This document shows positions 47,040 through 51,273 of a stretch of DNA of 64,000 bases, in pieces. The position numbers were made by a program, and so were the translations under genes. How positions within the stretch are numbered: position 1 is the first letter of the stretch; each line of letters starts with the position of its first letter. The DNA is from Psychromonas sp. psych-6C06 (GTDB lineage Bacteria > Pseudomonadota > Gammaproteobacteria > Enterobacterales > Psychromonadaceae), in contig NZ_PIZM01000006.1 of the NCBI RefSeq assembly GCF_002835465.1, forward strand, positions 372,001 through 436,000, read 5' to 3'. A model generated the notes under the pieces. It was not told the origin of the DNA and searched no databases. It saw nothing but the letters and a program-made list of their open reading frames with translations.

Positions 47040-47083
47040 CTGTTAATTCAAACAGTATACATGAATAGAAAGGATCTGCTCAA
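47040..47083 (-). promoter_or_regulatory. uvrA promoter with LexA (SOS) box
   Basis: CTGTTAATTCAAACAG at 47040-47055 fits the SOS box core CTGT-N8-ACAG exactly. On the minus strand a -10 TATACT (47059-47054) overlaps the box and a -35 TTGAGC (47083-47078) lies 18 bases before it. LexA bound here would block uvrA, as in E. coli. It is also close enough to affect the divergent sensor gene. Confidence 0.9.
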
Positions 47084-49467: not shown

Positions 49468-50142
49468 TCATATTGCAAATTGTTGATTAATAATGGATTG
49501 TGTAAACGCTTTTTTAAGATAAAAACCACGTGGACGGACTTTAATGATTGTCCCATCTTCTCCATAAGCTTCAGTCAGTACTTTTCCATTGGCCGCTTTG
49601 GGTCTAAGTTGAAGTACATCGCCATCTCGTGCGCTGATAGACTCTATTTTACCAAGTGCAATCTTTTCCATTAGCTCTAGCCAGTCGGCTTTAAGTTGTT
49701 GTTCTTGGTAGGCTGACGCTGTCCATAAGAAACCACTGCCGACAATCCTATCTGCTAAGGAAACACTTCGTTCTCCCTGAACTGGGACCCACAATACTTG
49801 GCTTAGTTTATTACGAATATTACTGTTTTCCCAAGTTAGACCTGTGGTATTTAAAATAGGTGTGGAGCAGACAAAGGTGGTTTCTAATACTTTGCCAAAT
49901 TGATCAATCGGAATTGTTTTTAATTCAATGCCTAAATGTTTAAAGTCTTGCTCTGGTTTACTGCCGGCCGTGGCGCCTAAGTGCCACTCGATCAGTTGAC
50001 CGACCCATCCTTTATTAGTACGAAGATCCTTGGCCATCTTTATTCCAGCCTGTTCGGCAAGTTCATGCAATGAATAACCTGCTATTTTTTCACAAAGTGA
50101 GAGTAACTCATGGCTGGTTTTAGGTGGTGCAATCATCTTCAC
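49468..50142 (-). CDS. mutH: DNA mismatch repair endonuclease MutH
   Basis: 224 residues. It nicks the unmethylated strand at hemimethylated GATC sites after MutS/MutL signal a mismatch. Seen: [38 protein letters not shown] (residues about 43-80), with the catalytic Asp, Glu and E-x-K set, then TTFVCSTPI and LWVPVQGE. Presence of mutH implies Dam methylation in this organism. It is divergent from rppH, as in E. coli. Confidence 0.97.
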
Positions 50143-50730
50143 GCTGGTCTCTGTAGGTGATTTGAGAGATGAATATTAATATAGTTATATAACTATTCAA
50201 GGTTATTCATCTCTTTATCAAGTAGCTTACACAGAGTTATCCACTTTTTATGTGAGTAACTCATAATTGTAGTTATCTTCTATGACAGTTTTAATTTTCT
50301 ACTAATAACTTTTTAAATAAACGTGATCATTGGCTAATTTAACAGCTAAATTATAGGTTAAAGATTGAAATGGTTGAAATTTGAACTAAGGAGATATTCA
50401 CATTGAGGTGTGAATTATTACTACTGTTTATAAATACAGTTTATATTTGTGCGTGCCGTATTTACAGTCTTAAGTACATGATTATTAACAAATAAAAGGT
50501 TGGTAAACAAAAAAAATAAAGATCTTGCATATTACCTAAAAGATCTTTTTTCTCTTTGTAAGATCATTATGCACAAACTTATGCACAGTTTTCGTGGATA
50601 TGTATCACTTTTCTTCATATCAGTTTGATGGGGTTAAGATTCTGTGAAAGAATGCCCCATTATTTCAATATAGTGCCTTACCCCAAAAAAATAATTCAAA
50701 GGGTTTGGTCTAACCTTAAAGGTGTATTTA
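50143..50730. promoter_or_regulatory. DARS2-like DnaA-box region between mutH and rppH
   Basis: 588 gene-free bases. Two exact DnaA boxes (TTATGCACA, consensus TTATNCACA) lie at 50567-50575 and 50579-50587, three bases apart in the same direction. A reversed, weaker box (CGTGGATAT) is at 50593-50601, and TTATCCACT at 50237-50245 has one mismatch. Four GATC sites are present. In E. coli the DnaA-reactivating sequence DARS2 lies in exactly this mutH-rppH (ygdP) gap. I could not see a clear IHF site. Promoters of both flanking genes must also lie here. Confidence 0.7.
50518..50551. repeat. AAAGATCT inverted repeat within the mutH-rppH spacer
   Basis: AAAGATCT and AGATCTTT are perfect reverse complements with a 15-base loop, the right arm running into six T. 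It looks like an intrinsic terminator for the plus strand, or an AT-rich unwinding/fold site just left of the DnaA boxes. Confidence 0.55.
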
Positions 50731-51273
50731 GTGATAGATACTGACGGCTATCGTCCAAATGTAGGTATCATCATCTGTAATAAAAATGGCCAGGTTTTAT
50801 GGGCGAAACGATATGGACAGCACTCTTGGCAGTTCCCACAAGGCGGAATTAAAGAGGGCGAGACGCCTGATCAGGCAATGTATCGAGAGTTATATGAAGA
50901 AGTTGGTCTAAAACCTGAACATGTTAAGCTGCTAGCAACCAGCCGTTCATGGTTGCGCTATAAATTGCCTAAACGTTTAGTGCGATGGGATTCCCCGGAG
51001 CCCGTATGTATTGGACAGAAACAGCGTTGGTTTTTATTACAATTGATAAGCAATGATAAGCAGATTGAGTTTGAGGCTTGTGGACACCCTGAATTTGATG
51101 ATTGGCGATGGGTAACCTATTGGTATCCTGTCAGACAGGTTGTTTCTTTCAAACGAGAAGTTTACCGCAAAGCATTAAAAGAGTTCTCTGCGGTGGCCTT
51201 TTCACTCATGAAAAGTAACAGCGAGAAAAAAAGAGGTAAACGTTATCGTCGCCCAAACAATAAGGGCAATTAA
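50731..51273 (+). CDS. rppH: RNA pyrophosphohydrolase RppH
   Basis: 180 residues from the GTG at 50731 (M-I-D-T-D-G-Y, matching E. coli M-I-D-D-D-G-Y). AAAGG lies 9 bases upstream; an in-frame GTG three codons earlier is within that site. It removes pyrophosphate from mRNA 5' ends and so starts decay by RNase E. The Nudix box reads [20 protein letters not shown], followed by VGL. The TAA is 29 bases before ptsP, as in other gammaproteobacteria. Confidence 0.95.

Follow-up and report, generated by a model that had tools for sequence, protein, structure and literature searches.

The mutH-rppH spacer

The window analyzed here is the whole stretch of 64,000 nucleotides from Psychromonas sp. psych-6C06. 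A spacer of 588 bp (50143-50730; G+C 29%) lies in it between the divergent genes mutH and rppH, the true start of the latter being the GTG at 50731, and ptsP follows rppH, the order mutH-rppH-ptsP being that of E. coli. The sequence-only reading had described the spacer as gene-free and as carrying two exact TTATGCACA boxes three bases apart, at 50567-50575 (+) and 50579-50587 (+), a reversed weaker box at 50593-50601 and a one-mismatch box at 50237-50245 (+). All of this was borne out: the ORF scan found no open reading frame of at least 60 amino acids in 50143-50730, NCBIfam models confirmed both neighbours, and each box lies where it had been placed, the reversed one (ATATCCACG) with two mismatches and the single one reading TTATCCACT. 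Two weaker boxes absent from that reading, at 50225-50233 (+) and 50251-50259 (-), complete a second triple. The features of the locus are as follows:

49468-50142 (-): mutH, flanking the spacer; NCBIfam NF003458/TIGR02248, above cut-off
50225-50259 (+): core B, second DARS-type triple with the geometry of core A, conserved across families; boxes at 50225-50233 (+), 50237-50245 (+) and 50251-50259 (-)
50372-50386 (+): Fis-like site GGTTGAAATTTGAAC, a perfect fit to the broad consensus
50394-50402 (+) and 50409-50417 (-): central head-to-head DnaA box pair, in 20/20 Psychromonas modules
50422-50439 (no strand): predicted LexA (SOS) box TACTGTTTATAAATACAG, pattern TACTGTN8ACAG, between the cores
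50471-50483 (+): IHF-like site TAAGTACATGATT, one mismatch to TAANNNNTTGATW
50567-50601 (+): core A, the DARS2 core, with the offsets and orientations of E. coli DARS2/DARS1 and found in 0 of 20,000 shuffles; box III 50567-50575 (+), box II 50579-50587 (+), box I 50593-50601 (-)
50731-51273 (+): rppH, flanking the spacer; NCBIfam NF001934, above cut-off

Other readings of the spacer were rejected, that of a small RNA for want of an Rfam match and that of a promoter because promoter-like sites were not above shuffles. Moreover, no terminator was found in the spacer, and rppH gave the sole match when the whole region was compared by blastn with plasmid records. A further weak box, TTATTCATC, is found at 50203-50211, 22 bp before core B; it is kept as GGTTATnCA in many Psychromonas, and other spacers, too, have a box at that distance (FFF 22/12 geometry). 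An inverted repeat, AAAGATCTT...AAGATCTTT, at 50519-50550 forms a 9-bp AT-rich hairpin, has two GATC sites and runs into a stretch of T's; its AAGATCTT part is kept in most Psychromonas, and the hairpin only in the closest relatives.

Geometry and conservation of core A

Core A is made of a forward box, a second forward box at +12 and a reverse box at +14. The core boxes of E. coli K-12 DARS2 start at 493 (+), 505 (+) and 519 (-) when the spacer is read from mutH to rppH, and offsets (12/14) and orientations (++-) are thus identical in both, which corrects the sequence-only reading, where the orientations were said to differ from those expected of an exact copy. The E. coli DARS1 core (TAATACACA tgg TTATCCACA ggaat AGTGGATAA) has the same geometry; in fact, a review describes the core spacing as the same in DARS1 and DARS2, with box I opposite in orientation (PMC5742627). 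Boxes III and II are perfect in Psychromonas and box I has two mismatches, while the E. coli DARS2 core has one mismatch in each box.

Across the genome, exact TTATNCACA boxes number 192 and their reversed control 195; with no enrichment, searching for them singly was uninformative. Among 20,000 dinucleotide-shuffled versions of the spacer, the triple occurred in none with at most two mismatches and in 8 with at most four, and two triples of at most four mismatches each, 260-360 bp apart, occurred in none. The two spacer triples alone pass at five mismatches or fewer in the whole window, as does core A alone at three or fewer in the 3.72-Mb genome, and 1.15 Mb of flanking background, both strands included, held no triple with up to three mismatches and one with four. 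When 2592 triple geometries were compared on 26 spacers, picked to span many genera and families, FFR 12/14 came first by far, with 18/26 spacers at three mismatches or fewer (mean 0.05). It was still first with core A masked (21/26 at five or fewer; mean 0.46, next 10), and other geometries, the mirror one included, were not enriched. The core A triple is not a product of chance.

The comparison drew on rppH loci of 60 relatives and 80 named genomes, to which 28 loci from other families were added. A core with at most five mismatches was present in 22/23 Psychromonas loci, in all 27 from Shewanella and its family, in 9/9 from Aeromonas, in 15/15 from Enterobacteriaceae and in further families, so that the proposed comparison of related mutH-rppH spacers, Psychromonas, Shewanella and E. 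coli among them, found the core geometry conserved. Overall, the core is kept in most families of the order with a long mutH-rppH spacer. Families whose spacer is reduced to 48-195 bp had no core, nor, at up to five mismatches, did the long-spacer families f3, f14 and f17 or Paraglaciecola; a core was also missing at rppH in Proteus, Providencia, Xenorhabdus and Arsenophonus, where no adjacent mutH was found. In three complete Psychromonas genomes (G006, G010, G022), DARS2 lies 12.9-14.7% of the chromosome away from dnaA, as compared with about 20% in E. coli. That DARS2 is kept beyond the enterics holds true, though it had been published before, as the available part of one report (PMC8682772, Fig. 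8) describes homologues in Vibrio cholerae and Shewanella denitrificans; its occurrence outside this group is therefore expected, and the Psychromonas site adds to those known beforehand.

E. coli DARS1 lies between bioD and uvrB, upstream of uvrB, and Psychromonas has its own counterpart there: TTATCCACAGAAAAAGTGGATAA, upstream of uvrB at G000:C2:220077-220099 (L167), is a candidate found from sequence, which recurs in most Psychromonas genomes, with similar ones before uvrB in several other families. So far as the literature examined shows, this counterpart is new. In two families (G032; G028 and G052), a further DARS-type triple lies downstream of pta, near 1501-1535 of L153, L157 and L158, and in at least two of these three loci it sits between a P-II-like gene and pta, which converge; this triple is possibly a third DARS.

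A second core and the sites between

Core B lies on the mutH side of the spacer, in the window 82 bp away from the start codon of mutH and 342 bp from core A, with the same polarity. The box geometry, its conservation and the nearly fixed spacing of the cores can be read directly from the DNA. In fact, the distance between cores B and A was 329 ± 15 bp (CV 0.045) in 92 spacers from across the order, against CVs of 0.40 for the distance to mutH and 0.36 for that to rppH in the same spacers, and in Psychromonas the cores are 332-342 bp apart while rppH is 164-540 bp away. Four loci (L011, L019, L021 and L077) have extra DNA between core A and rppH, the latter lying about 350-600 bp off with the core-to-core distance unchanged. 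An alignment anchored on core B gave 1.8 bits for box II', 1.5 for box I' and 0.3 for the flanks, values that are inflated, as the anchor was picked by match. At the threshold used, core B was absent in Psychromonas L017 and L018, in Moritella and Enterovibrio, and in families f21 and f22. As judged from these sequences, most DARS2 versions across the order have two predicted DnaA-binding cores, a nearly fixed distance apart.

According to the available part of a ChIP-seq study (PMC11317965), DnaA gives three peaks at E. coli DARS2, of 213-, 199- and 78-fold, and one of 218-fold at oriC; the highest of the DARS2 peaks covers a double DnaA box, tCTTACACCAtgTTATCCACAg, which is the counterpart of core B. 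That part describes the box pair, and no discussion of an inverted third box was found in it; in E. coli this box is CTGGGATAA, with three mismatches. Moreover, hand tallies over 60 genomes gave about 88 matches to the head-to-head pair TTATNCACA-N8-GNATAA and about 10 to its reversal, with gene context checked for a subset. Many of the 88 matches lie at uvrB (DARS1) or at the mutH core B, a clustering that favours a DARS-type identity for core B over that of a generic pair of boxes. On the other hand, over-initiation from a plasmid does not require boxes IV-VI or the right half of DARS2 in E. coli, as given in the available part of PMC4245941; that half, judged by its length, very probably contains the core B counterpart, which speaks against an essential role of core B. 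In the literature examined, a partial search, no earlier description of the second triple was found, and it is new so far as known.

Several sites lie between the cores. The sequence-only reading had seen no clear IHF site; one is nevertheless predicted at 50471-50483, at -96 from core A on the side of mutH, and sites of this kind are kept at -95/-96 in all 20 two-core Psychromonas modules (0-3 mismatches), several relatives having 2-3. Beyond it, at about -195, stands the Fis-like site GGTTGAAATTTGAAC, with one mismatch to the strict published consensus (PMC4245941). The central head-to-head pair, near -173/-158 from core A, mostly shows one mismatch. The Fis-like site fits perfectly GNNYRNNWNNYRNNC, a broad Fis consensus that was picked after viewing the alignment; 18/20 modules are perfect to it. 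DnaA, Fis, IhfA and an Hda-like protein are encoded in the genome, Fis (NF001659) and the IHF subunit IhfA (TIGR00987) both scoring above cut-off.

A predicted LexA box lies in the middle of the module, about 280 bp from either gene start. Its pattern, TACTGTN8ACAG, has 11 matches in the genome against 3 in the control, and the others precede recA, recN, uvrA, a SulA-like gene and topB, which identifies it as the SOS box of Psychromonas sp. psych-6C06. That before uvrA, a textbook LexA target, is TACTGTTTGAATTAACAG at 47040-47057 (-) of the window, 19 bp upstream of the gene, and served to validate the spacer box. The CTG-N10-CAG palindrome is kept in 20/20 Psychromonas modules at -143/-141 from core A, with CTGG instead of CTGT in more than half of the other Psychromonas, and in Enterobacteriaceae CTGTTTC-ATTTACAG is kept inside the module, about 53 bp from core B. 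E. coli DARS1 is overlapped by a LexA box (PMC6015884); as far as a partial literature search shows, a LexA box inside DARS2, here a predicted one, is new.

Compared with individual E. coli loci, the module shares with DARS2 the gene neighbourhood, the three-box core (+12/+14, ++-), IHF-like and Fis-like sites between core and mutH, and a distal double box matching core B. In contrast, the cores are 316 bp apart in E. coli DARS2 (342 in the window), its IBS1-2-like sites stand at -87/-71, its IHF, Fis and DnaA sites are arranged somewhat differently, and the central head-to-head pair and the mid-module LexA box set the Psychromonas module apart. The V. cholerae and S. denitrificans DARS2 are reported by core, FBS2-3 and box V, and no mention of a second triple was found in the part of that source available (PMC8682772). 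A CRP-like palindrome, TGTGA-N6-TCACG, was also observed in E. coli (L039 spacer, about 355-375, read from mutH to rppH) and in Enterobacteriaceae loci, overlapping the region of the DARS2 Fis site; ATGTGATGATCATCACG is found in most enterobacteria aligned.

A probable DARS2 module for DnaA recharging

With the same neighbourhood, identical core spacing and orientation, and near-complete conservation in the genus, the counterpart of DARS2 proposed by the sequence-only reading gained support: we consider it highly likely that the spacer is the Psychromonas DARS2, on whose core A ADP-DnaA would be activated by IHF and Fis. The chemistry of DnaA recharging is known from E. coli, and by analogy it presumably takes place in Psychromonas. 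ADP-DnaA would bind core A (50567-50601), with the molecules on boxes II and I head to head and their AAA+ domains touching; this contact would release ADP, and apo-DnaA would leave and rebind ATP. Box III would stabilise the DnaA assembly, while IHF (at about 50471) and Fis (at about 50372) would bend the DNA and activate recharging. Core B stands about 340 bp away with the same polarity, predicted IHF, Fis and DnaA sites lying in between, and since the second core and these sites extend beyond core A, the functional unit is probably about 50225-50601. Core B may then take part as well: with the bend bringing it close, it would offer another place for reactivation or docking, and in a looped complex another point of assembly. 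LexA, for its part, would be able to occupy the middle of the module and may be a further input.

The boxes could instead be ordinary DnaA operators for transcription of mutH and/or rppH, without recharging. DnaA represses several repair and replication genes, DARS1 boxes overlap the DnaA-repressed uvrB promoter (PMC6015884), and core B is close to the mutH start codon; however, across the 92 spacers the distances to mutH (47-357, about eight-fold) and rppH (138-595, about four-fold) vary, while the core-to-core distance is conserved, and an operator has no need of an inverted third box at a fixed spacing, which makes this explanation unlikely. Even less probable is a datA-like or passive cluster titrating DnaA, as the site matches DARS, not datA, in position, head-to-head core and spacing, even though DnaA occupancy of the E. 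coli core B counterpart is strong and, in the available ChIP-seq data, similar to that of datA and oriC. Chance boxes in AT-rich DNA, a reading that the low G+C and the lack of genome-wide box enrichment might favour, can be dismissed in view of the shuffles, the background and, decisively, a geometry conserved in many families.

Altogether, recognizing the spacer as DARS2 would place DARS2-type control of the initiator in Psychromonas, together with a DARS1 partner. By the order-wide comparison, DARS2 is better described as a module, about 370 bp long, than as a single core with helper sites; that the strongest DnaA ChIP peak of E. coli DARS2 lies off the known core would be accounted for by core B. 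More tentatively, DARS2 might be paired throughout the order, its cores, about 270-355 bp apart and of the same polarity, being joined by IHF/Fis bending for recharging or feedback, with LexA bound between or beside them coupling this to the SOS response in Psychromonas; this wider scheme is possible rather than probable, and such LexA coupling of recharging perhaps extends to Enterobacteriaceae. The predicted LexA box suggests a link between DNA damage and DnaA recharging.
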